Source of the DNA: Verrucomicrobiota bacterium
Lineage (GTDB): Bacteria; Verrucomicrobiota; Verrucomicrobiia; Limisphaerales; UBA8199
NCBI GenBank assembly: GCA_029974925.1
Contig: JARKQH010000017.1
Location: 1-52,154 of the forward strand
Reading direction: 5' to 3'
DNA: 52,154 nt
Part shown: positions 7,391 to 26,612 of the stretch, in pieces
Numbering within the stretch: the first letter of the stretch is position 1
Layout: every line of letters begins with the position of its first letter
Notes under the pieces: model-generated
The model's database searches: none
Told to the model about the DNA's origin: nothing
What the model saw: only the letters and a program-made list of their open reading frames with translations
Program-made: the position numbers and the translations under genes

Positions 7391-10300
7391 ATGACTGGTA
7401 GCGCAAACTGGGGTGCGCCTCGTGGAGGGCGCGTCCGGCGGAGAGCCGCCGCGCGGCGCCGGCCGTGGGTTATTGCGGCGGCCGCCGCCGCAGGCCGGGT
7501 TCGCCATGCCTTGGCGGCCGGGCTGGTGGCCGGCGTGCTGGGCTGCCTTGCCGCGGGAGCGGCTGAGGAGACAATCCCGGTCCCGGCGTCCGGGAGTGTG
7601 ACCGACCCGGCAGCCGAACCGGGGCCGGGTGTTCCGGCTGAAAGCACGAATGCGCCCGCCCCATCCGAGGCCGCTGCACCCTCGATCAAGGCTGTGCCCC
7701 CGGCTGCCGCCCTCCGGCCGTTGCCCGGTTTGCGGGCCGAGGTGGTGGCGGATGAGACTCTCGTGTCGGCCCCGGTGGCCATGGCGTTCGACGAGCAAGG
7801 ACGGTTGTTTGTGGCGGAACGGCCCGAGGACAACCCGCGGCTGGGGCGCATCCGGCTCTTGTCGGACACAGACCACGACGGCGTGTTCGATCAGAGCTCG
7901 GTTTATGCCGAAGACCTGCCCCACGCCTCGTCGGTGGCCTGTTACAAAGGCGGGGTGTTCGTGGCGGCGACGCCCGAAATCCTGTACCTGAAGGACCTCG
8001 AGGGAGCGGGAACGGCAACCGTCCGGCGGGTCATGTTCAAAGGCTTTGGGCAGAACGGGACGTCGGGAGGAGAGACGGGAAGCTCGAGGCTGATCGGGCA
8101 TCTGACCTGGGGGCCCGACGGCCGGATTTACGGCACCAGCGCGGGCCTTGGCGGCGAGGTCAGTTCCCCGGCCGCGCCATCCCTGCCCGCGGTGGAACTG
8201 GAGGGAGCCGACTTTTCATTTGACCCTCGCACACTGGCGTTGCGGCGCGAAGCCGGGCCGGCGGAATCGGGGATTCTCTTCGACCCCTTCGGGCGGAGAT
8301 TCGTCAGCGAATACCGGCGGCCGCTGTTGCAGGTGATGTACGACCCCGCGCATTTCCTGCGGAACCCCGGCTTTGCCCCGGCGCCGGCGTTGCGGGAGGT
8401 GGTTCCTCCGTCGGTGCGGTTGTGGGTTGGCGATTCTGGCGGCACGCGCCTGCCGGCAGCCAGCGAAACTCCAGGCGCGTTGACTGGCGCGAAACGGGAA
8501 GGCGGGGAGGGACCCCGGCGTTCGCGTCCGTTCCTGGCGGCTCAAGGGGGCTGCATTTATGCTGACGCGCTCCTGCCCACCAACTTTTACGGGAACCTGT
8601 TCATTGCCGAACCGGCGGCGGGGGTGGTCTGCCGCCTGGTTTTGCGGACCAATGGGCTGGAATGGGTTGCCCACCGTCCTGCCGGCCAGGCGACCCGCGA
8701 GTTCCTCGAAGCGTCCGATCCGCAATTTCACCCGGTGCAGGTGGCGGTGGGACCCGAGGGGGCGCTGTATGTGGCGGACCGACGGGATGGCGCCAGCGGG
8801 CGGATTTATCGGGTGGTGCCGGAGACCTATCGGCCCGCCCCGGCCAAGGGATTGGAAAAGGCCGATGCGCGCGAGTTGGTTGCCGCCCTGGCCAGCACCA
8901 ACCAATGGCGGCGCGAGACGGCCCAGCGCCTGCTGGTTGAGCGCGAGGAGTCGAATTTGACCCCGACGTTTCTCGGTCAGATGCTGCTCAAGTCGCCCGC
9001 GCCGGTCGCCCGCATCCAGGCGCTTCATGCGCTGGCGAACCTGGGCGTGCTCACCGAGAAGCTGTTGGTGAAGGCGTTGCAGGCTCAGGACGAGCGGGTT
9101 CGTGAGCAGGCGTTGCGGGTGGCGGATGCCTACCTCGGCGGGCGCCCGTTTTCAGAGACGCTCGCAGGCCAGTTCAAGACGCTCAGCCGCGACAGCTCCC
9201 TGCGGGTCCGGTACCAGCTTGCGCTGGCGTTGGGCCAGGTGCAGCACCCCGGCCGCGGGCTGCTCCTGGCCGAGATTCTGGCGCAGGATGCCGACAATCC
9301 CTGGCTGCGGACGGCGGTGCTTTGTTCAGTCCCGCCGGACGCGGGGGCGTGGTTCACGTTGTTGTCGCGCAACCCGCGGTTTGCCCGGAGCCCCGCCGGT
9401 GAGGAATTCCTGCGGGTGCTGGCGGGGACGATTGGGCTGCGCAGCCGCCCGGGCGAGGTGGCGGCGGTGATTCAACACGCGACTTCGAGTTCGGTCCTGC
9501 CGGTCGAATCCCTGGGGTTGCTGGCTTCGTTGGGGGAGGGGCTGAAACGGAACGGCAATGAGCTGGCCGCGGCGAACACGAACGGCGTGCTCGACCGTGT
9601 CTTCAGCTCCGCGCTGCTGGCGGCCGGGGCGGCGGGGACCGAGGAACGCCTTCGTCTCGAGGCCCTGCGGTTGGTCGGCGTCTCCCGTTTCACTTACGCC
9701 GAGGCGGGAGATGTGTTGTTGCTGTTGCTGACCAACCCGAGGGTCTCCCCCGCCGTGCAGGCCGCGGCCGTGTCGGTCCTGAGTCAGTATGCCGACCCTC
9801 GCCTGGCAACCAATGTGTTGAACCGTTGGACGGCTTTCGCTCCCGCCCTGCGGCCAGAGCTGGTCAGTTGCCTGTTGGCCCGGGTCGAGCGGGCGGGCAT
9901 CACCCTCGAGGCCATCCAAAACGGCGTGATCCCTCCCGCCGACCTGTCGTTTCAACACGTCCACCTGCTGCGGTCGTGGCCGGACCCGACAATCCGGCAA
10001 TGGGCCGAGCGGGTGTTTGGGCCCCTGAGCTTGCGGCGGCCCGAAGCGGTGGAGTTTTTTCAACCGGCACTCCGGCTCCAAGGCAACAGCTCCCGCGGAC
10101 AACGGATTTTTTCCGCCCGGTGCGCCTCGTGCCATTCCGCTTCTCCGGCTGACGGCCAGCTTGGGCCCAGCCTGCGCGGCGTCGGCGCCTGGACCCCGGG
10201 AGAGTTGTTGAGCGCCGTGCTCGAGCCCACGTACGAAATCCGGACGGGGTACGAAACCTGGCTGTTCGAAACCCGGGAAGCCGCGGTGTTCGTTGGGCGT

Positions 10301-10483
10301 GTCGAGGCGGTCACGCCTGAAACGATTGTTTTGCGCCGTCCCGGGCAGGCGGCCACGGTCTGGCCGCGGGCCGCCTTCTTTCTCACGGAACCGCGGCCGT
10401 GGTCGCTGATGCCCGAGGCGCTCGAGAACGGGCTGACGCCGCAGGACATGGCCGACCTGCTGGAATACCTGCGGGGGTTGTAG
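7391..10483 (+). CDS. PVC-type membrane-bound dehydrogenase with HEAT repeats and C-terminal cytochrome c domain
   Basis: 1030 residues, exported. The N-terminus has a basic stretch and a hydrophobic segment (HALAAGLVAGVLGCLAAGAA, about residues 38-57), then an Ala/Pro-rich linker to ~105. Residues ~110-470 form a beta-propeller-like sorbosone/glucose-dehydrogenase domain (VAMAFDEQGRLFVAERPEDN; GHLTWGPDGRIYGTSAGLGG; VGPEGALYVADRRDG), matching the 'PVC-type' dehydrogenase domain. Residues ~480-870 are HEAT-like helices. The last ~130 residues are the matching haem domain, with CASCH (Cys911, Cys914, His915) and a distal SLMPEAL that supplies a Met ligand. Such proteins are abundant in Planctomycetes and Verrucomicrobia and are thought to oxidise sugars or related compounds in the periplasm; the substrate is unknown. 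It is monocistronic and convergent with the DegT gene. Confidence 0.9.
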   Translation: MTGSANWGAPRGGRVRRRAAARRRPWVIAAAAAAGRVRHALAAGLVAGVLGCLAAGAAEETIPVPASGSVTDPAAEPGPGVPAESTNAPAPSEAAAPSIKAVPPAAALRPLPGLRAEVVADETLVSAPVAMAFDEQGRLFVAERPEDNPRLGRIRLLSDTDHDGVFDQSSVYAEDLPHASSVACYKGGVFVAATPEILYLKDLEGAGTATVRRVMFKGFGQNGTSGGETGSSRLIGHLTWGPDGRIYGTSAGLGGEVSSPAAPSLPAVELEGADFSFDPRTLALRREAGPAESGILFDPFGRRFVSEYRRPLLQVMYDPAHFLRNPGFAPAPALREVVPPSVRLWVGDSGGTRLPAASETPGALTGAKREGGEGPRRSRPFLAAQGGCIYADALLPTNFYGNLFIAEPAAGVVCRLVLRTNGLEWVAHRPAGQATREFLEASDPQFHPVQVAVGPEGALYVADRRDGASGRIYRVVPETYRPAPAKGLEKADARELVAALASTNQWRRETAQRLLVEREESNLTPTFLGQMLLKSPAPVARIQALHALANLGVLTEKLLVKALQAQDERVREQALRVADAYLGGRPFSETLAGQFKTLSRDSSLRVRYQLALALGQVQHPGRGLLLAEILAQDADNPWLRTAVLCSVPPDAGAWFTLLSRNPRFARSPAGEEFLRVLAGTIGLRSRPGEVAAVIQHATSSSVLPVESLGLLASLGEGLKRNGNELAAANTNGVLDRVFSSALLAAGAAGTEERLRLEALRLVGVSRFTYAEAGDVLLLLLTNPRVSPAVQAAAVSVLSQYADPRLATNVLNRWTAFAPALRPELVSCLLARVERAGITLEAIQNGVIPPADLSFQHVHLLRSWPDPTIRQWAERVFGPLSLRRPEAVEFFQPALRLQGNSSRGQRIFSARCASCHSASPADGQLGPSLRGVGAWTPGELLSAVLEPTYEIRTGYETWLFETREAAVFVGRVEAVTPETIVLRRPGQAATVWPRAAFFLTEPRPWSLMPEALENGLTPQDMADLLEYLRGL

Positions 10484-15448: not shown

Positions 15449-15850
15449 TCAGCTCTGCAGCCTCGGCGGGGGGATTGGCGCTTGGGCGCGGCGGGCCTCG
15501 CGGACAATGGCCCAACTGGTGCCCAGGGCCCAGAGCCAGCTCGCCGCAAAGAGGGCGATTCCCAGCAACGGCCAGCGGACCGCCTGCCACAGTTCGCCCA
15601 GCACCACCACCGGATCGGCGGCGGGGTCTTGAATCCGCGACCAGTTTTTGAAGAACCACCAGAAAAAACGGACGCCGCAGCCTGTGGTGAGCAGCACGCC
15701 GGCCAGTCCAAGCCCAGCCTGGACGTAGCCAATGCGACGGCCCCCCAGCAGGGAGCCGAACCCCGGAATCGCCAGGTTGGTGGTGAGGCACCCCCAGGCG
15801 GTCTGGGGACTAAGCCCCCGACGCGGGCCGAGAGCCAAAGAGATCTTCAT
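15449..15850 (-). CDS. Small membrane protein (TM2-like)
   Basis: 133 residues. The start, ATG 15850, lies 41 bases inside the end of the GYF_2 gene, so the two genes overlap and are co-transcribed. It begins with a short basic segment, then PGFGSLLGGRRIGYVQAG, which resembles the TM2-domain pattern of a glycine-rich loop between two helices (about residues 28-60). A third hydrophobic helix lies around 92-118, after the charged segment NWSRIQDPAADP. It is an inner-membrane protein of unknown function. Membership of the cluster with the GYF_2 and DUF2752 proteins suggests a shared membrane role. Confidence 0.7.
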   Translation of the reverse strand: MKISLALGPRRGLSPQTAWGCLTTNLAIPGFGSLLGGRRIGYVQAGLGLAGVLLTTGCGVRFFWWFFKNWSRIQDPAADPVVVLGELWQAVRWPLLGIALFAASWLWALGTSWAIVREARRAQAPIPPPRLQS

Positions 15851-16793
15851 ACGCGAACATCAGCGCGCCGAGCGCGAAGGGAAGATTCAGCAAAGTCACC
15901 AGCTTGGTCAGCATCACCAGCGGCAGGCTGACCCGCGCCACCTCGGCCATGAGCTCCGGCATCTTCTCCATGAGTCGCGCAAAATCCGGCGCGCCCGAGC
16001 CGGTAAGGTCGCGCATCGAATCGAGCAGCACGCCGGTCACGCGCAGCTCGGTGATGCCGTGCATGAGGATTACCGGCAGGTACGCCACCACGGCCAGCAC
16101 GAACACCTTGAACCACACGCGCGTGACCGCCTTGCGGCTGAGTTCCATCGCCGACCAGAATTCCATCCCCCGGTCCGCCACCAGTGGAATGGCAAAAAGC
16201 CAGGCGACCGTCAGATACACCCAGGGCAGCACACAAAACAGGAAACCGATCCCGCTCAACAGCGAAGTCATCACCCCCGCCAGCAGCAGTTGGGCAAAGC
16301 CCGTTCCGAATCCGGAAAACACCTCGGCCACGCCCGTGCTCCGTCCGCGGATGCAGCTTAGGAAGACCAGGTAAAGCCCGCCGTAGAGAACGCCTTGGAG
16401 CAGCCAGTAAACGAATCCCACCAGCGGCAGGAACTGCATGATCATTCCCAGCATCCAAACCAGGAACGTGGCGGCGAACAAAAGGCCGAAGTGGGCGCGC
16501 AGGAGGTCCCAGGACCGAACCAGGCAGGAGCCGACGTGCAGGTCCGCCACAGGTGAAACGGCGGGGCCGCTCCAGGAGGTTTCCAGGGGCGGTGGCGCCC
16601 CCGGCGCGGATTGCGGGGGGAGCGCTTGGGCCAGCTCGGGGAAGGTGGCCAGCGGGAGCCATTGGGCCGAGCCTTCCGGGCGGACCAAGCTCTGGCCGTT
16701 GAGCCGGCCTTCGGTGATCCATTGCCGGACTTCGTCAGCCGTCGCCGGTCCGTATTCCTGCCGATCGCCACCGAGAACTGTGTAGGTTGCCAT
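15810..16793 (-). CDS. GYF_2-domain integral membrane protein
   Basis: 327 residues, start ATG 16793. The frame is open for 80 codons upstream, but that stretch lies in the intergenic region and has no domain. Residues ~3-55 form a GYF_2 (DUF4339) domain with EYGPATADEVRQWI and WLPLATFPEL. In this family it is a small protein-interaction module that usually sits on membrane proteins. A Pro-rich linker (59-80) leads to about five or six hydrophobic segments (103-148, 166-205, 228-248, 288-314), resembling DUF4013/glycerophosphoryl-diester-phosphodiesterase-like membrane domains. The cytoplasmic GYF_2 part may recruit a partner to the membrane. The next gene starts within its last 41 bases. Confidence 0.82.
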   Translation of the reverse strand: MATYTVLGGDRQEYGPATADEVRQWITEGRLNGQSLVRPEGSAQWLPLATFPELAQALPPQSAPGAPPPLETSWSGPAVSPVADLHVGSCLVRSWDLLRAHFGLLFAATFLVWMLGMIMQFLPLVGFVYWLLQGVLYGGLYLVFLSCIRGRSTGVAEVFSGFGTGFAQLLLAGVMTSLLSGIGFLFCVLPWVYLTVAWLFAIPLVADRGMEFWSAMELSRKAVTRVWFKVFVLAVVAYLPVILMHGITELRVTGVLLDSMRDLTGSGAPDFARLMEKMPELMAEVARVSLPLVMLTKLVTLLNLPFALGALMFAYEDLFGSRPASGA

Positions 16794-16890
16794 GTGTTGG
16801 GGCACTGGTTTGCCAGAGAGCGGGGCGGATTGAAAGCGCGAATGCGGTAAAACCAGCCGGAGCGGTCTGGCTGGGACCCTGCGGGGGGAT

Positions 16891-17328
16891 TCAGGGCCGG
16901 CCCGCAAACGCGAGGAAAGGCAGCCCGAGGTTCCGGAGCACGCCAAACAACACCACCAGCGCCACGGCCGCCCACAACCAGCCGCGCCGCACTTGGAAGC
17001 CGGCGCGCCTGCCCCGCCACCGGCTCCAGGCACAGGAGCCGGCCAGCACGGTCCCGAGCAGCGTGCCCAGAACCAGCAACGCGTTGAACTGCAGCGCCGT
17101 CAAAAGCTCCCCGTGCAGCAAATGGTGAAGCGCCCGCAGGGAACCGCAACCGGGACATTTCAGCCCCGTGAAATGGTGAAACAGGCAGGGCGGATAAAAG
17201 CCGTACCGGGCGGGATCAAAGAAAAACAGAACCAGCACGACCAGGACGGCGGCCGCCACCCATCCGTAGCGCGCGGGGGGCCGCGAAGCCGGACGGCCGG
17301 GCGGGCCGAGTGGAGGCGGGGAACTCAT
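16891..17328 (-). CDS. DUF2752-family membrane protein
   Basis: 145 residues with three hydrophobic segments (about 23-38, 76-96, 116-138). It carries the DUF2752 signature: YPPCLFHHFTGLKCPGCGSLR with Cys48, Cys58 and Cys61, followed by ALHHLLHG. The CPGCG cluster is on a short loop between helices and could bind metal or form a disulfide; the family's function is unknown. It starts 54 bases after the kamA stop and lies 97 bases before the GYF_2 gene, all on one strand, so it may be in the kamA transcript. The N-terminal 20 residues are Pro-rich and cytoplasmic. Confidence 0.88.
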   Translation of the reverse strand: MSSPPPLGPPGRPASRPPARYGWVAAAVLVVLVLFFFDPARYGFYPPCLFHHFTGLKCPGCGSLRALHHLLHGELLTALQFNALLVLGTLLGTVLAGSCAWSRWRGRRAGFQVRRGWLWAAVALVVLFGVLRNLGLPFLAFAGRP

Positions 17329-17382: not shown

Positions 17383-18621
17383 TCAAACCCATTCCGGCTC
17401 GCGGATGGCCGGGGGGCGGGTTGCCAGCGGCGTTCCATCCGGCGCTTCCGGATATTCGAAGACCTTCCCTTCGTAATTGCGAATCACCACGCGGTCCGCA
17501 TTGCGGCTCAGAACATAATCAGGGTTGATGGGCACCTTGCCGCCGCCGCCGGGCGCGTCAATCACGTACTGGGGCACGGCGTAGCCGGAGGTGTGGCCGC
17601 GGAGTTTCTCCATGATGGCCAGGCCCTCCCGCACGCTGGTTCGCAGGTGCGCCGACCCGGCGATGAGGTCGCACTGGTAAATATAGTAAGGTTTCACCCG
17701 GCAGCGCAGCAGCTTCTGCACGTGGATTTTCATCACCGCCGGGTCGTCGTTGACATGGCGCAGGAGCACCGATTGGTTGCCCAGCGGGATGCCCGCGTCG
17801 GCCAGCCGTTCCAGCGCGGCGCGCACCTCGGTTGTCAACTCCCGGGGGTGATTCGAGTGAATGCTGATGAACAGCGGATGAAACTGTTTCAGCCGCTCGC
17901 ATAGTTGCGGCGTGATTCGCTGGGGCAGGAACACGGGAATCCGCGTTCCAATCCGCAGGAACTCCACATGGGGAATGGCGCGAAGCGCGCGCAGCAGGTG
18001 TTCCAGTTTCTCGTCGCTGAACAGGAGGGGGTCCCCGCCGCTGAGCAGGACGTCCCGAATGGCCGGGTGGTCGCGGACGTACTGGATTTGCTGCTCAAAC
18101 TGCGGATGGAAATCGTAACCAGTGGCGTTGCTGACGAGGCGCGAACGCGTGCAATAGCGGCAATAAGCCGCGCAACGGTCCGTGACCAGGAACAACACCC
18201 GGTCCGGATAGCGGTGCACCAGCCCCGGCACCGGGGAATGCGCGTCCTCCCCGCACGGATCGGTCATTTCCCAAGGCGCAAAATGAGTCTCCTCGACCCG
18301 GGGAATGACCTGCCGCCGAATCGGGCACAATTCGTCCGAGGGATCAATCAGGTTGAAGAAGTACGGCGTGATGGCCAGCGCCAACTTGTGGTTGGCAAAT
18401 GCCGCCCCGGCGTACTCCTCGGGGCTCAGGCCGGGCATCAGCCGCTGCAGTTGCTCCACCGTCGTGATCCGGTGCTTCAACTGCCAGTGCCAGTCATTCC
18501 AGTCAGAGTCGGAAACGTCCCGCCAATAGCCACGCCCTGCCGGCCGAAATTCTCTAAGCTCCGCGTGGAGGTCTGCTGGCGCAGGCTCCTCGTCCTCGCT
18601 CCCCTTTGGTTCAATGTGCAT
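17383..18621 (-). CDS. kamA: Lysine 2,3-aminomutase (radical SAM)
   Basis: 412 residues, cytoplasmic. It converts L-lysine to L-beta-lysine using a [4Fe-4S] cluster, S-adenosylmethionine and PLP. The radical-SAM triad is CAAYCRYC (Cys150, Cys154, Cys157), SGGDPLL binds SAM, and the PLP Schiff-base Lys362 is in DAPGGGGKVP. The two Asp residues that hold the lysine side-chain amino group in known aminomutases have equivalents here: Asp318 in YQCDL and Asp355 in IDAPGG. This argues for lysine rather than glutamate. The long N-terminal region shows it is the KamA type, not the short EpmB type. No beta-lysine acetyltransferase (AblB) is adjacent, so whether beta-lysine is used as an osmolyte, in a product or in catabolism is open. 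A strong promoter lies just upstream. Confidence 0.93.
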   Translation of the reverse strand: MHIEPKGSEDEEPAPADLHAELREFRPAGRGYWRDVSDSDWNDWHWQLKHRITTVEQLQRLMPGLSPEEYAGAAFANHKLALAITPYFFNLIDPSDELCPIRRQVIPRVEETHFAPWEMTDPCGEDAHSPVPGLVHRYPDRVLFLVTDRCAAYCRYCTRSRLVSNATGYDFHPQFEQQIQYVRDHPAIRDVLLSGGDPLLFSDEKLEHLLRALRAIPHVEFLRIGTRIPVFLPQRITPQLCERLKQFHPLFISIHSNHPRELTTEVRAALERLADAGIPLGNQSVLLRHVNDDPAVMKIHVQKLLRCRVKPYYIYQCDLIAGSAHLRTSVREGLAIMEKLRGHTSGYAVPQYVIDAPGGGGKVPINPDYVLSRNADRVVIRNYEGKVFEYPEAPDGTPLATRPPAIREPEWV

Positions 18622-18673: not shown

Positions 18674-18861
18674 GGAGGCGGGCCGCGGCTCGAACCGAGG
18701 TTCCTTACCCAACACACTGCAAGGTATCCGTTTGCGTGTTCGGCCAGAATCTCCCCCTTGGCCGACAGCGTGAGGCCACCCGGCTTGCAGGCCGTCCCCG
18801 GCCGGCTCCCGCTCACAACGTCCGCGCGATGGCCTGGGTGCGACAGGCCGGCTTCGTGCAA

Positions 18862-18914: not shown

Positions 18915-21900
18915 ATGGGCTTGAGTTGTTTAGCGCCGCGGCGCCCCCCCTTGTTGCGGCGAGACGTGTGGCCACTGCTGGCGTGTCTGGCTTTTTCCGG
19001 CCAAGGCGCGAACATGACGCCTCTCGCGGTGTCCGGTTTCAATTACGATGTCGTCGTTGAGAACACCGCCTCGGGTCCGCCCTACGGCGCCTACGCGCGT
19101 ACTTTCGGGCCCGGCGAGGACAAGTCCTTTTACCAGGCTGGCCTGCCCGGCACCAGCTATGGCCTGCCGGCCGGCCGTTCCTTCACCAGCGCGGTGGGGG
19201 ACGGAACGGTCTTTGAATTTCAACCCTACACCGCCAACAACGCGCTGGTCATGAGCAGCGACACCGGCATCAGCCAGGGCACCCTCACGCTGGTCACTCC
19301 CGCCGTGCTCGCGCGCCTTGCGGTCATCGCCAACTCCGCCGGCGGCGGCGGCAACCCGAACCTGACGCTCAATTTTGCCGACGGCTCCACCTACACCACC
19401 AACTATAACGCCCTGGACTGGTTCAACAATTCCGGTTATGCCCTGTCAGGTGTCGAGCGCATCAACCTTTCTTCCGGGACGACAGAGGGCAGCCCCACCA
19501 ATCCCCGTTTTTACCAGACAACCATCAATCTCTCCACACTCCCGGAAGTGGCGGGCAAGCTTCTGGTCAGCATCACTTTCAATCAGGCGGCTTCGGCCCG
19601 GTCCACCGGCGTTTACGCCGTGAGCGCCGAGCCCGGGCCGGAATCTCCGCCGGTGTTTCTCTCGCAACCCGCGGACATCACGGTGGCCGAGATGCAGCCG
19701 GCGTCGTTCTCGGCGCTGGTGTCCGGCAACCCCGTCCCCACGTTTCAGTGGTTCAAGAATGGCGCCGTCCTGCCCGGTGCGACCAACTCGGCGTTATTCC
19801 TGCCGCTGGTCCCGCTTTCGGACCACGGGGCCGGTTTCCGGGTGGTGGCCTCCAACCCCAGCCTTTCGGTCACCAGCCGGACGGCGGTGCTAAGCGTCCT
19901 GGCGGACACCAATCCGCCCGCGCTCCAAGCGGCGCGCTCGCGGGGTTTGAGCGAGGTCGAAGTCGTCTTTTCCGAGAAGGTCACCGCCGCCTCCGCCACC
20001 AATCGTGCCAACTATTCGCTCACGGGTCCGGCGGGCGCGGTTTCGATCACCGCGGCCACACTTGCTGCCGGCCAGAGCAACGTGCTGCTGGCGGTCCCTG
20101 CCCTGATCGAAAACGCGACCTACACCCTGGTGGTCAACGGCATCACCGACCTGGCAGCCGGGGCCAACCGTATCCCGACCAACAGCCAAACCACTTTTGT
20201 CGCCCTGCCTTGGACGCCGGCGGACATTGGCAGCCCTGCGCCCGGCTGGATAACCTGGGCGCCCGGGGGGGTGGATGTTTCGGGCAGCGGAGCTGAAATC
20301 GGCGGCACGAGCGACCAGCTTCACTTCAGCTACGAGTTGCGCACCGGCGATTTTGACCAGCGCGTGCGTCTCGAGGGGCTCAGCCTCACGGACCCGTGGG
20401 CCGAGGCGGGGTTGATGGTGCGCGAGACCCTTGAGCCGGGCAGCCGGTTTGCCAGCGTCCTGGCCACCCCCTCCATCAGCGGCTGCTACTTCGAAGGGCG
20501 GACCCTGGCCAATTTCGCCAGCTTCCGCAGCGGCGCTTTTCCGGTCAACTACCCGGCCGCGTGGCTTCGGTTGCGCCGGGCCGGCACGCTGTTCGCGGGC
20601 TACGCGAGCCTGGACGGCCTGAACTGGACCTTGCTGGGCTCAATGAACGTGGCGTTGTCCAACACGGTGTGCTTTGGTTTTGCGGTCTCCAGCCACGCTC
20701 CGAGCCAGCTCGCCCTGGCCCGGTTTCGGGATTTCTCCCCCGTGACCACCGCCCTCAGCAACGCGCCGGCTTCGGACCGCGAGCCGCTGGCCCAGTGCAG
20801 CCGCCGCACCCCGCTGGTGATTTCCGAGATCATGTATCACCCGCCCGACGTGATCTTGAACGGCCGGAAAGCCGAACTGGAGTTCATCGAGCTTTTTAAT
20901 TCGCGGGGCGAACCCGAGGACATCAGCGGCTACCGCATTTCCGGCGATGTGGACTACGTGTTTCCGCAAGGCACCGTCCTGCCCGGCGGCGGATTCCTGG
21001 TCGCCGCCCGGGCGCCGGCGGACCTGGAGGCGGTGTATGGATTGTCCGGCGCGCTGGGGCCATGGGCGGGCGCCGTTACCAACAACCTGCCCAACAGCGG
21101 CGGCACGGTGCGCTTGCGCCATCGGACGGGGGCGGTTTTGCTGGAAGTCAGCTATTCGGACCAGCCGCCGTGGCCGGTTGCCGCTGATGGAGCCGGCCAT
21201 TCGCTGGTGCTGGCGCGTCCCTCCTACGGCGAACGCAACGCCCGCGCCTGGGATGCCAGCGACACCGCGCTCGGCTCGCCCGGTCGGATGGACCCGGTGA
21301 CGTTCAATCCGCTCGCGCCGCTCAAGATCAACGAGTTCCTGGCTCACACAGACGATCCGGAGCTGGACTACGTCGAGCTGTACAACCACAGCAACGACAC
21401 GCTGGACATCTCGGGCTGCATCCTCACCGACGACGCCAGCACAAACCGGTTTGTGGTGCCCGCCGGCACGAGCATCCCTCCCCGTGGCTTCGTCGTGTTC
21501 ACCCAGACCACTCTCGGGTTCGCCCTGAGCGCCGAGGGGGAGACCCTCTATCTTTACAGCCCCGGCCGTGCCCGCGTCCTGGACGCCGTGCGGTTCGAGG
21601 GCCAGGAAAACGGCGTGTCAACCGGGCGCTGGCCTGACGGCGCCGAGGCGTTCTACCGCCTCCTCGCCAAGACTCCAGGCACGAACAACGCCGGCATCCG
21701 CCGCGGCAACATCGTCATCAACGAAATCCATTACCATCCGGCGAGTCATGATGACGACGACCAGTTCCTCGAGCTTTACAATCGGGGCGGCGCGCCGGTG
21801 GCGCTGGGGGGCTGGCGGTTGACGGATGGCATTTCGTACACGTTTCCCACCAACGCCTACCTGGCTCCCAACAGCTACCTGGTCGTCGCCCGCGACGCCG

Positions 21901-24900
21901 CGCGGCTGCGCACCAATTACACCCATCTCAACACGGTCAACTGCTTTGGCAATTTCAGCGGCCGGCTCTCGGGCCGCGGCGAACGGGTGGCGTTGACCAT
22001 GCCCGACACGGTCCTCTCGACCAATGCGTCGGGCCAGGTCGAAACCAACCTCATTCACGTGGTGGTGGACGAAGTCACCTATGGCACCGGCGGGGCCTGG
22101 GGCCAATGGTCCGATGGGGGCGGGAGCAGCCTGGAACTTCGAGACGCGCGCGCCAACGGCCGCCTCGGTGCCAATTGGGCGGACAGCGATGAAACCGCCA
22201 AGGCGCCGTGGACCCTCATCGAAACGACCGGGGTGGTGGACCTCGGCAACGTGGCCGCAGATCAGCTTCAGGTCCTGCTCCAAGGGGCCGGCGAATGTTT
22301 GATTGATGATGTGCAGGTGCTCGACGCTTCCGGCAGCAACCTGATTGCCAACTCGACCTTCGAGGGTGGCGTCTCCGGTTGGACGGCCCAGGGCACCATG
22401 TCCCAGTCCTCCTGGGAAAGCACCGAGGGTTTCAACAGCAGCCGCTCCTACCACATCCGCGCGGTGGACCGCGGTGACAACCAGGTCAACCGCGTCCGTG
22501 TTCCCCTCACTGCGACGTTGTCCAGTGGCAGCGTCGCCACGATTCGCGCCCGCGCCCGGTGGTTGCGCGGAAACCCGGAACTGATCTTCCGTCTGCGCGG
22601 AAACTGGCTCGAGGCCGCGGGCCGCATGACGCTGCCCGCCCAGCCCGGCACTCCCGCTTTGCCCAACAGCCGGGCGGGGCAAAACGCGCCGCCGGTGATT
22701 TACGAGGTCAGCCATCGTCCCGTCCTGCCGGCCGCCAACGAACCCGTGGTGGTCAGCGCCCGGGTGCATGATCCGGACGGCGTCAGTTCGTTCTTGCTCA
22801 CCTATCGGGTGGACCCGTCGGGTTCGAGCTCGACCCTCACCCTGCGGGATGACGGGCTGATGGGCGACGCGGTGGCTGGCGACGGTCTGTATAGCGCCAC
22901 CCTCCCCGGCCAGAGTGCGGGCACGCTGGTGGCCTTTTATCTCCAGGCCACCGACCGATTCTCGCCGGCCGCGACCGGCCGATATCCCGCCGACGCCCCC
23001 ACCCGGGAATGCCTGGTTCGCTTTGGCGAAGCGACTCCTACGGGCAATTTCCCCGTCTATCGCTTCTGGATGACCCAGGCCACGTTTGATGCCTGGACCA
23101 GTCGTCTCAAACTCGACAACACGCCCAACCCGGTCACTTTCGTGCTGGGGGACCGCCGCGTCATTCATCTGACCCAGGCCTTGTTTGCCGGCAGCCCTTA
23201 TATTGCCCCCGGCTTTTCCACCCCTTCCGGCAACCGTTGCGGCTACAGCATCACGTTCCCGGACGATGACCCGTTCCTAGGGAGCGAAGACCTGGTGCTG
23301 GACTGGCCGGGGGGCCATGGCGGAGAAAACACCGCCATTCAGGAGCAAATGGCCTACTGGATTGCCGACCGCATGAACCTCCCGTTCAGCTACCGCCATT
23401 TCATCCGCCTTTATGTCAACGGCGTCTCCGACATGCAGCGGGGCGGCATCTTCGAGGCCATTATCCAGCCGGCCGGCGAGTTCCTTGATCAATGGTCCTA
23501 CGGCGACAGCGACGGCGATTTCTACAAGATTGACCGCGCGTTCGAGTTCAACGACAGCAACAGCCGGGTTGCGGACCCCATGCCGCGCCTCGAGCCATAC
23601 CGCACCACCGACCTGGCTACCGGCGGCACAAAATACAAAACGGAACGTTATCGGTGGACGTGGCTGAAGCGTTCCTACGACAGCGTGCTGGATTACACCA
23701 ACCTGTTCGTGCTGGTGGATGCGCTCAATGCCACCAGTCCCGAACCCTACACCGCCCAAACCGCGGCTTTGGTGGACATTCCCGAGTTCATGGGCATGTT
23801 CGCGTTCGAACACATCATCAACAACTTCGATAGCTGGGGCCACAACATCGGCAAGAACATGTACATGTACAAGCCCCAGCGCGGGCCCTGGCAGCTTTAC
23901 GCCTTCGACCTGGACTGGCTCATGCTCGTTTCGGCCCGAAACTCCAGCACCTACTCCGCTCTCAACGGCCCCCTCTTCAGCTCCGACGACCCGACGGTCA
24001 CCCGCATGTACAATCATCCACCCTTCCGCCGCGCCTATTTCCAGGCCGTGCAGGCGGCGGTGGACGGTCCGCTGCTGAGCGCCAACTGCGACCCGGCGAT
24101 GGACGCCAAGTACGCCTCGCTCGTCGCCAATGGCATCACCTTGTGCGACGGGGGCGCCCTCGTTGACCCGTCCGCGGTCAAGACCTGGTTCCAACAACGC
24201 CGCACCGCGCTCCTGGCCCAACTGGTGGCCGTCGCCGCCAATTTCGCCGTGTCGGGCCCCACCACGCTGACGGTCTCGTCCAACCTGGTCACGCTCTCGG
24301 GCACCGCTCCGCTGAACCTCCATGACCTCAAGATCAATGGGGTTTCCTGGCCGCTGACCTGGACGTCGGTGAACCAATGGACCGTCCGCTTTCCGATTGC
24401 GCCCGGCACCAACCAGTTGACTGTGGCTGGTTATGACCGGGAAGGCAACCCGCTGGCGGGGGCGTCCCAGGCGCTAACCGTTGTCTTCCCTGGCGCCGTT
24501 CCTTCGCCTGAGAATCGGGTGGCGCTTAATGAAATCATGATTCAACCGCCGGTTGCCGGGGCGGAATATGTCGAGCTGTTCAACACCTCCACCAACACGG
24601 CGTTCGACCTGTCCGGCTGGAGGTTCAACGGCCTGTCCTACACCTTCCCCGCCGGCAGCTTCATCGCGCCGCAATCCTATCTGGCTCTGACAAAGAACCG
24701 CGTGGCCTTCAATGCCGCTTACGGTGTCAATGCCGTGGCTTTTGGGGAATATGAGGGCAACTTGCAGTCCGGCGGGGAAACGCTGACCCTCCTCGAGCCG
24801 GGCGCTTCTCCGGGGGCGGAAACCGTGGTGACCAAAGTGCGCTACGAGGGCGGTCTGCCGTGGCCGGTTTCGGCGAGTCCGGGAGCGGCGTTTCAATTGA

Positions 24901-26612
24901 TGGACGCGGAGCAGGACAACTGGCGGGCCGGGAATTGGTGGAGTGTGCAGGCCGGCACGCGAGCGCCGGCGCAGTGGAAGTTCGTGACCACAAACATCAC
25001 GGCCAGCAGCTCGACCCTTTACGTTTACCTCGGTTCCGCCGGCGACATTTATCTCGACGACTTCTCCCTGGTGGGAGCGGCCGGCACGAACGCGCTGGCC
25101 AACGGCGGCTTCGAGTCGCCCCTGGCCGGGTCGTGGACGGTGACTTCGGGCTTCGCGCAATCCACGCTCAGCACGGCGTTCAAGCGCAGCGGCAGCTCGA
25201 GCCTGCATCTGGTTGCAACCGCGGCCGGCAGCGGCAGCGGCAATTCGATTTACCAAGTCATCACGCCGGCGCTGTCCATCGGCCAGCCCTACACCCTGAG
25301 CTTCTGGTACCTGCAAAGCACCAACGGGAGCCCGCTCATCGTGCGGTTGTCGTCCTCGACCACGCCGGTCAACCTGAACCCCGCCCCGCCGTTGCTCGAC
25401 AACGCCGCCCGCGCAACCCCCGGCGCGGCCAATGCTGTCAGGGGTTCCTTCACTCCGTTCCCGCCGCTGTGGATCAATGAGTTGCAGGCCGAAAACCTCA
25501 CCGGCATCACCAACCGCGCGGGCCAGCGCGTGCCTTGGGTGGAAATCTACAATGCCGGCACAAACGCCGTCAGCCTCCAGGACTGCTACCTGAGCCCGGA
25601 TTATTCCCAACTGACGCAATGGGCCTTCCCGACCGGGGCGGTGATTGCTCCGGGCCAGTTCAAGGTGGTTTTCGCCGACGGCCAGACGCACCTCTCCACC
25701 GCCGAGGAATGGCACACCAGTTTTGCCCTCCCGCCCGCCGGCGGCTCGGTGGCGCTGACCCGCACCGCCAACAACGGGCAGCTTCAGGTGATGGATTACG
25801 TGAATTATACGAACCTGCCGGCCAACCAATCCTATGGGTCTCTGCCCGACGGGCAGAGCTTTGCGCGGCGTCACTTCATCTATGCAACGCCCGGGGCCCC
25901 CAACAATGCCGCCAGTCCGCCTGTGACGGTTTTCATCAACGAATGGATGGCTGACAACACCATGACCCTGGCGGACCCCGCCGATGGGCAATTCGAGGAT
26001 TGGTTCGAAATCCACAACCCGGGGGACCAGACCGTGGACCTGGGCGGGTATTACCTCACCGACAATCTCAACAATCGTTTTCAGTACCGGGTGCCGGCCA
26101 ACGGCCATTACACCATCCCTCCCCGCGGCTTCCTCCTGGTCTGGGCCGACGAGGAAACGGGCCAGAACAACACCAGCCGGCCCGATCTCCATGTTAATTT
26201 CAAACTGAGCAAGGGTGGCGAGGCGATTGGCATTTTCGCCGAGGACGGCACCCCGGTGGACTATGTCACCTTCGGCCCGCAAGAGACCGATGTCAGCGAG
26301 GGCGTGTATCCCGACGGCGGAACCCTGCGGCTGTTCATGGCGCAGCCCAGCCCGCGGGCGCCCAACATTCTGCCGGCCTCGTACGCTCCACCCGACGTCA
26401 TCGCGTTTTCCTGGAGCAACGGGCATCCACTGACTCTCACCCTGCGGACCGCTCCGGGCCACTCCTACCGCGTCGAGTTCAAGGACGATCTTTCCGCCCC
26501 CTTCTGGCTGCCGCTGACGGGCGATTTGATGGCCACCGGCTCTCAGTTGGTGATTACCGATCCCGCTCCCAACGCCGCCCAGCGCTATTACCGTGTCGTC
26601 CAGGTGGAGTGA
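18915..26612 (+). CDS. Giant secreted protein with six lamin-tail domains and a CotH kinase-like domain
   Basis: 2565 residues, the largest gene here. The signal peptide is RRDVWPLLACLAFSGQGA. Order by residue: beta-rich N-domain (35-240), Ig-like (245-326), SbsA/Big_5-like Ig (328-430), concanavalin/DUF1349-like (432-610), lamin-tail domains 1-3 starting near 631, 799 and 932 (each opening with 'xINEx' or 'ISEIMYHP' then 'EYVELYN'-like strands), carbohydrate-binding-like (1100-1232), Ig-like (1259-1372), CotH-like (1379-1775), Ig-like (to 1858), lamin-tail 4 (1868), carbohydrate-binding-like (2016-2150), lamin-tails 5-6 (2184, 2337), and a tail (2495-2565) ending in YYRVVQVE. The CotH part keeps NNFDSWGHNIGKNMYMY and YAFDLDWLM, whose Asp residues bind metal in CotH kinases. 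Expected at the surface or secreted. The role may be adhesion, polymer binding or extracellular protein phosphorylation; substrate unknown. Confidence 0.9.
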   Translation: MGLSCLAPRRPPLLRRDVWPLLACLAFSGQGANMTPLAVSGFNYDVVVENTASGPPYGAYARTFGPGEDKSFYQAGLPGTSYGLPAGRSFTSAVGDGTVFEFQPYTANNALVMSSDTGISQGTLTLVTPAVLARLAVIANSAGGGGNPNLTLNFADGSTYTTNYNALDWFNNSGYALSGVERINLSSGTTEGSPTNPRFYQTTINLSTLPEVAGKLLVSITFNQAASARSTGVYAVSAEPGPESPPVFLSQPADITVAEMQPASFSALVSGNPVPTFQWFKNGAVLPGATNSALFLPLVPLSDHGAGFRVVASNPSLSVTSRTAVLSVLADTNPPALQAARSRGLSEVEVVFSEKVTAASATNRANYSLTGPAGAVSITAATLAAGQSNVLLAVPALIENATYTLVVNGITDLAAGANRIPTNSQTTFVALPWTPADIGSPAPGWITWAPGGVDVSGSGAEIGGTSDQLHFSYELRTGDFDQRVRLEGLSLTDPWAEAGLMVRETLEPGSRFASVLATPSISGCYFEGRTLANFASFRSGAFPVNYPAAWLRLRRAGTLFAGYASLDGLNWTLLGSMNVALSNTVCFGFAVSSHAPSQLALARFRDFSPVTTALSNAPASDREPLAQCSRRTPLVISEIMYHPPDVILNGRKAELEFIELFNSRGEPEDISGYRISGDVDYVFPQGTVLPGGGFLVAARAPADLEAVYGLSGALGPWAGAVTNNLPNSGGTVRLRHRTGAVLLEVSYSDQPPWPVAADGAGHSLVLARPSYGERNARAWDASDTALGSPGRMDPVTFNPLAPLKINEFLAHTDDPELDYVELYNHSNDTLDISGCILTDDASTNRFVVPAGTSIPPRGFVVFTQTTLGFALSAEGETLYLYSPGRARVLDAVRFEGQENGVSTGRWPDGAEAFYRLLAKTPGTNNAGIRRGNIVINEIHYHPASHDDDDQFLELYNRGGAPVALGGWRLTDGISYTFPTNAYLAPNSYLVVARDAARLRTNYTHLNTVNCFGNFSGRLSGRGERVALTMPDTVLSTNASGQVETNLIHVVVDEVTYGTGGAWGQWSDGGGSSLELRDARANGRLGANWADSDETAKAPWTLIETTGVVDLGNVAADQLQVLLQGAGECLIDDVQVLDASGSNLIANSTFEGGVSGWTAQGTMSQSSWESTEGFNSSRSYHIRAVDRGDNQVNRVRVPLTATLSSGSVATIRARARWLRGNPELIFRLRGNWLEAAGRMTLPAQPGTPALPNSRAGQNAPPVIYEVSHRPVLPAANEPVVVSARVHDPDGVSSFLLTYRVDPSGSSSTLTLRDDGLMGDAVAGDGLYSATLPGQSAGTLVAFYLQATDRFSPAATGRYPADAPTRECLVRFGEATPTGNFPVYRFWMTQATFDAWTSRLKLDNTPNPVTFVLGDRRVIHLTQALFAGSPYIAPGFSTPSGNRCGYSITFPDDDPFLGSEDLVLDWPGGHGGENTAIQEQMAYWIADRMNLPFSYRHFIRLYVNGVSDMQRGGIFEAIIQPAGEFLDQWSYGDSDGDFYKIDRAFEFNDSNSRVADPMPRLEPYRTTDLATGGTKYKTERYRWTWLKRSYDSVLDYTNLFVLVDALNATSPEPYTAQTAALVDIPEFMGMFAFEHIINNFDSWGHNIGKNMYMYKPQRGPWQLYAFDLDWLMLVSARNSSTYSALNGPLFSSDDPTVTRMYNHPPFRRAYFQAVQAAVDGPLLSANCDPAMDAKYASLVANGITLCDGGALVDPSAVKTWFQQRRTALLAQLVAVAANFAVSGPTTLTVSSNLVTLSGTAPLNLHDLKINGVSWPLTWTSVNQWTVRFPIAPGTNQLTVAGYDREGNPLAGASQALTVVFPGAVPSPENRVALNEIMIQPPVAGAEYVELFNTSTNTAFDLSGWRFNGLSYTFPAGSFIAPQSYLALTKNRVAFNAAYGVNAVAFGEYEGNLQSGGETLTLLEPGASPGAETVVTKVRYEGGLPWPVSASPGAAFQLMDAEQDNWRAGNWWSVQAGTRAPAQWKFVTTNITASSSTLYVYLGSAGDIYLDDFSLVGAAGTNALANGGFESPLAGSWTVTSGFAQSTLSTAFKRSGSSSLHLVATAAGSGSGNSIYQVITPALSIGQPYTLSFWYLQSTNGSPLIVRLSSSTTPVNLNPAPPLLDNAARATPGAANAVRGSFTPFPPLWINELQAENLTGITNRAGQRVPWVEIYNAGTNAVSLQDCYLSPDYSQLTQWAFPTGAVIAPGQFKVVFADGQTHLSTAEEWHTSFALPPAGGSVALTRTANNGQLQVMDYVNYTNLPANQSYGSLPDGQSFARRHFIYATPGAPNNAASPPVTVFINEWMADNTMTLADPADGQFEDWFEIHNPGDQTVDLGGYYLTDNLNNRFQYRVPANGHYTIPPRGFLLVWADEETGQNNTSRPDLHVNFKLSKGGEAIGIFAEDGTPVDYVTFGPQETDVSEGVYPDGGTLRLFMAQPSPRAPNILPASYAPPDVIAFSWSNGHPLTLTLRTAPGHSYRVEFKDDLSAPFWLPLTGDLMATGSQLVITDPAPNAAQRYYRVVQVE

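Follow-up and report, generated by a model that had tools for sequence, protein, structure and literature searches.

A giant modular protein of Limisphaerales with a CotH-fold core that keeps the kinase catalytic residues

In Bacillus, CotH stands alone as a spore coat protein of some 360 residues, and its phosphorylation of CotB and CotG leads to spore coat assembly. The window studied here, a stretch of 52,154 nucleotides from a Verrucomicrobiota bacterium of the order Limisphaerales, encodes a 2565-residue protein in which a CotH-like region lies among lamin-tail domains (LTDs). Is this region a true CotH domain, could it work as a kinase, and is the protein an oddity of one genome or a member of a wider family? 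Its gene starts with ATG, the open frame reaching back upstream to position 18774, and is laid out as follows.

18915–26612 (+): giant LTD-CotH open reading frame, 2565 residues
18915–19013 (+): probable N-terminal export signal, residues 1–33, RR...WPLLACLAFSGQGAN (inspection and ortholog N-termini)
19647–19853 (+): Ig_3-like domain, residues 245–313 (Pfam 2.4e-6, below cut-off; I-set above cut-off at 246–287)
19926–20198 (+): Big_5 Ig-like domain, residues 338–428 (Pfam)
20556–20702 (+): DUF1349-like (concanavalin-like) match, weak, residues 548–596 (3e-4, below cut-off)
20811–21167 (+): LTD 1, residues 633–751 (Pfam and local HMM)
21318–21626 (+): LTD 2, residues 802–904 (Pfam and local HMM)
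21708–22088 (+): LTD 3, residues 932–1058 (Pfam and local HMM)
22335–22559 (+): CBM_4_9-like module, residues 1141–1215 (Pfam 4.3e-8)
22836–22928 (+): choice-of-anchor X motif, residues 1308–1338 (NF041940, above cut-off)
23046–24236 (+): CotH kinase-fold domain, residues 1378–1774 (Pfam; AF2 model; 5jd9/5jda, Z 33.5)
24519–24851 (+): LTD 4, residues 1869–1979 (Pfam and local HMM)
25071–25376 (+): second CBM_4_9 or GTA-spike-like beta module, residues 2053–2154 (all matches below curated cut-offs)
25464–25838 (+): LTD 5, residues 2184–2308 (Pfam and local HMM)
25929–26303 (+): LTD 6, residues 2339–2463 (Pfam and local HMM)
26385–26609 (+): C-terminal beta domain, YRVE[FY]...W...RFYRV, residues 2491–2565 (profile matches; ends at the stop codon)

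A Pfam scan of the whole protein returned six LTD stretches (1.7e-87), one CotH, CBM_4_9, Big_5 and Ig_3, the six PF00932 stretches reaching 289.4 bits against a cut-off of 34.3. The LTD borders were drawn with a local HMM, built first from the LTDs of the protein itself and then iterated over its relatives, which places CotH at residues 1360–1804, between LTD 3 and LTD 4. The first-pass annotation had described three LTDs before and three after a single CotH, and this count is exact by both methods. The Ig, concanavalin-like and two CBM-like modules that it listed are also present, with DUF1349 and the second CBM_4_9 as weak, below cut-off matches (the latter at residues about 2059–2137); the paralog C354 covers most of the same DUF1349 model at 2.3e-6. 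The choice-of-anchor X motif lies immediately N-terminal of the CotH domain. Such a layout of modules is not due to chance.

The CotH region matches PF08757 at residues 1444–1734 (5.7e-21; 75.8 bits against a curated cut-off of 23.8). A sequence search of the PDB with this region alone gave no match, so that CotH homology rested on profile and fold. Profile–profile comparison with Bacillus CotH gave 4e-17 over 344 columns. An AF2 model of the CotH part, built with 84 natural relatives, reached a mean pLDDT of 92.7 and a pTM of 0.91; it superseded a mediocre first model from 15 sequences (pLDDT 68). With Foldseek against the PDB, the best matches of this model were the B. cereus CotH entries 5jd9 and 5jda (4.7e-16 and 1.6e-15), and VIA-align likewise put them at the top (Z 33.5–33.6, 349 aligned residues, 14–15% identity, rmsd 3.2–3.3), the runner-up after the CotH entries having a Z of 11.3. 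Remoter matches are kinase-fold structures: actin-fragmin kinase, PI4K, HipA, CtkA and Fam20. By profile and predicted structure, the core of the 2565-residue protein is a true CotH-fold domain, and the identity first proposed for it is borne out.

Three residues of this domain correspond to the catalytic positions of Bacillus CotH.

23829–23831 (+): D1639, catalytic Asp (B. subtilis CotH D228), by alignment
23856–23858 (+): N1648, catalytic-loop Asn (N233), by alignment
23907–23909 (+): D1665, metal-binding Asp (D251), by alignment

The kinase triad is D166/N171/D184 in PKA (PMC12189002), and its equation with CotH D228/N233/D251 is our own joint reading of PMC7821199 and PMC12189002. The substitutions D228Q and D251A abolish the kinase activity of B. 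subtilis CotH (PMC7821199). The correspondence between B. subtilis and B. cereus numbering was checked; the B. subtilis reference sequence was verified against 5jd9 (2e-142), with Asp at 228 and 251 as published. All three residues are invariant in 84/84 sequences, where identity falls to about 18% and 7 of 426 columns are invariant; the probability that three predefined positions would all be among these 7 by chance is 2.7e-6. A loss of catalytic residues, which for the first-pass annotation would leave a structural protein only, is therefore not what we found. The clade also has invariant residues of its own, T1408, Y1579, R1580 and R1706, and a nearly invariant K1538.

Of the two motifs singled out earlier, FDLDW (1664–1668) does contain the metal-binding D1665, whereas SWGHNIGKN (1640–1648), which starts right after D1639 and ends at N1648, is the catalytic loop (NFD...N) and no glycine-rich nucleotide loop. 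In B. cereus CotH, adenine is sandwiched by Y142 and W245 (PMC12189002). F1664, just before D1665, occupies the site of W245, so that both proteins have an aromatic residue before the metal Asp, and this residue is W in 44 and F in 37 of the 84 relatives; alignments differ on whether Y1537 or K1538 is the equivalent of Y142. The likeness to Bacillus CotH comprises a fold in common over about 349 residues and the equivalents of D228, N233 and D251. The window protein differs by its low identity, an extra loop ahead of the catalytic Asn, a changed N-lobe motif and the embedding of the domain in a long, predicted-secreted chain.

This N-lobe motif, RG...KKSY in Bacillus, aligns with AGS...NRCGY in the window protein. 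The position of K59 holds R here and, among the 84 relatives, R in 27, L in 20 and other residues in the rest. As the aligned sequences have it, the motif has decayed, and the clade does not conserve its basic residue. RG...KKSY was taken from the alignment and does not define the family, since PF08757 members above cut-off lack parts of it.

In the host genome, 13 CotH genes pass the Pfam cut-off, nearly all of them in giant frames; about a dozen giant, predicted-secreted CotH-fold proteins, the window protein among them, are encoded there. C354, C395 and C219 belong to its own CotH clade: C354 and C219 share with it both the C-terminal domain and the layout of three LTDs, CotH and three LTDs, and C395 has three LTDs, CotH and one LTD before the contig border ends it. 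C103, C390, C411, C102, C245a, C333, C334 and C448 fall into other CotH subgroups; in most of them the canonical N-lobe Lys is retained and 2–8 LTDs are present. A further copy of the window clade (G000 contig C359, about 1296–2528, locus L043) contains an in-frame TAA, which may mean that the gene is broken or misassembled. Another giant LTD-CotH paralog, C245b (locus L014, contig C245 of G000), has D228 replaced by E and N233 by D, and to judge from these substitutions is a probable pseudokinase. C245b shows that a CotH protein of this genome can lose its catalytic Asp and Asn, which gives meaning to their conservation in the window clade.

Beyond this genome, 111 of the 146 genomes sampled from the order carry the window CotH clade, often in several copies, and a phylum-wide sample of 145 genomes, the host among them, has it in 12. 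Among named records, its closest relatives are from Verrucomicrobiota MAGs, with Limisphaerales, Limisphaera and Pedosphaera among them. Among 20 full-length relatives from other genomes, nearly all repeat three LTDs, CotH and one to three LTDs. The protein is a member of a real, well-conserved, order-wide family and not a one-off. At 20 ortholog loci, counted after masking antisense frames within the giant gene, no neighbouring gene was conserved and no candidate substrate came to light; only other giant proteins recur nearby, which argues against an operon or a linked substrate.

In the window itself, a KamA-family radical SAM gene at 17383–18621 (−) is divergent from the giant gene; its product is near lysine 2,3-aminomutase and slightly below the AblA cut-off. 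A PfkB gene also adjoins the giant gene, on the opposite strand. Farther off are a GYF_2 domain protein with a weak BPSS1780-type membrane-protein match at 15810–17033 (−) and a 1030-residue protein with DUF7133, HEAT and cytochrome c at 7391–10483 (+).

LTD and CotH are already on record in one secreted protein: Cthe_0239 of C. thermocellum, cellulosomal and of 117 kDa, has the order LTD, LTD, Fn3, CotH, and the same organism has a CotH protein in Cthe_0044 CseP (PMC6083626). Like the window protein, Cthe_0239 unites the two kinds of domain; it is linked to a polysaccharide-degrading system. It has two LTDs, whereas the window protein has six, together with Ig and CBM modules and a different C-terminal domain. 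A dockerin would be expected in cellulosomal LTD-CotH proteins, and the Pfam scan of the whole 2565-residue chain found none at E 0.01. A secreted bacterial enzyme of another kind, the nuclease ExeM of Shewanella, also carries an LTD; it degrades extracellular DNA without need of this domain, whose role is unproven (PMC6085458). The window clade is hence a conserved subfamily of a known kind, and the rarity that the first-pass annotation implied is refuted by this precedent and by the stereotyped layout across the order.

The last 75 residues recur at about 97–110 places in the host genome (from scoring 150 out of more than 200 candidates), end at most 5 residues from the stop codon in 27 of the best 30, and also occur in 24 of the 25 genomes sampled from the order. 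Against Pfam and NCBIfam, the domain had no match. Loci L136–L165 display the uncatalogued pattern Yxvxy..L...W...RFYRv over about 75 residues. Our guess is that the domain may act in Limisphaerales as a signal for sorting or anchoring. The type IX secretion marker SprA (TIGR04189) had no match and controls were equally silent, so this is no evidence of absence; secretins are present, with 5 matches.

The CotH fold, the kept and clade-invariant D/N/D, the arrangement of modules and the spread across the order incline us, with somewhat better than even confidence, towards a secreted multi-modular protein whose core would be a catalytically competent, extracytoplasmic atypical kinase of the CotH family. 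The architecture and the N-terminal leader fit a predicted surface or matrix protein. In the mechanism that we infer, the leader would export the protein, and its LTD, CBM-like and Ig modules and C-terminal domain would anchor it to the cell surface or extracellular matrix. There the CotH domain would bind Mg-nucleotide, F1664 and an aromatic residue of the N-lobe enclosing the adenine, and would phosphorylate Ser/Thr on secreted partners or on the giant proteins' own modules, a role modelled on the action of CotH on CotB and CotG. A literature search found no experiment on the window CotH clade. Two points count above all against a working extracytoplasmic kinase: the N-lobe has changed, and ATP is scarce outside the Gram-negative cytoplasm. 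The ambiguous alignment at the N-lobe Tyr and the lack of a conserved neighbour or candidate substrate weigh against it as well.

The first two of these points favour a pseudokinase or nucleotide-sensing structural module in a protein that would serve as surface or matrix glue through its LTD, Ig and CBM modules. Modules of adhesion type do dominate the chain, and C245b makes it clear that kinase-dead CotH arises in this genome. A pure scaffold would, however, have no need of a D, N and D invariant throughout the clade, and we regard this explanation as unlikely.

Less probable still is an active transferase other than a protein kinase, which would phosphorylate carbohydrate or transfer another part of the nucleotide onto a glycan presented by the CBM-like modules. 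Fam20B and POMK are kinases of related fold that phosphorylate carbohydrate, and structures of the Fam20 family do appear among the remoter fold matches. Two CBM_4_9-like modules and one concanavalin-like module share the chain with the CotH domain, whose N-lobe is changed and whose clade-specific invariants (T1408, Y1579, R1580, R1706) would suit such an activity. Cellulosomal CotH proteins, too, are located among polysaccharide-acting enzymes (PMC6083626). By far the closest fold is nonetheless that of a protein kinase, CotH, and the CBM_4_9 matches are weak, their ligand binding putative. In a bolder form to which we give similarly little credence, the order-wide giant proteins would be CotH-fold transferases with a rebuilt N-lobe site and R1580, R1706 and K1538, modifying extracellular glycan or matrix while LTD and CBM modules present the substrate. 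That substrate and kinase lie in one chain, phosphorylation of its own LTDs or linkers controlling how the giant proteins assemble with each other, is very improbable: CotH does autophosphorylate (PMC7821199) and many giant LTD-CotH paralogs exist per genome, but no CotB/CotG-like Ser-rich or Lys/Arg-Ser repeat was noticed on reading the chain.

Should the CotH domains be active as kinases, each genome in a large, mostly uncultured order of Verrucomicrobiota would encode as many as a dozen, or even more, secreted enzymes of kinase fold. Extracellular phosphorylation would then be a common surface feature of these bacteria, and bacterial lamin-tail domains would gain a functional partner open to experiment.
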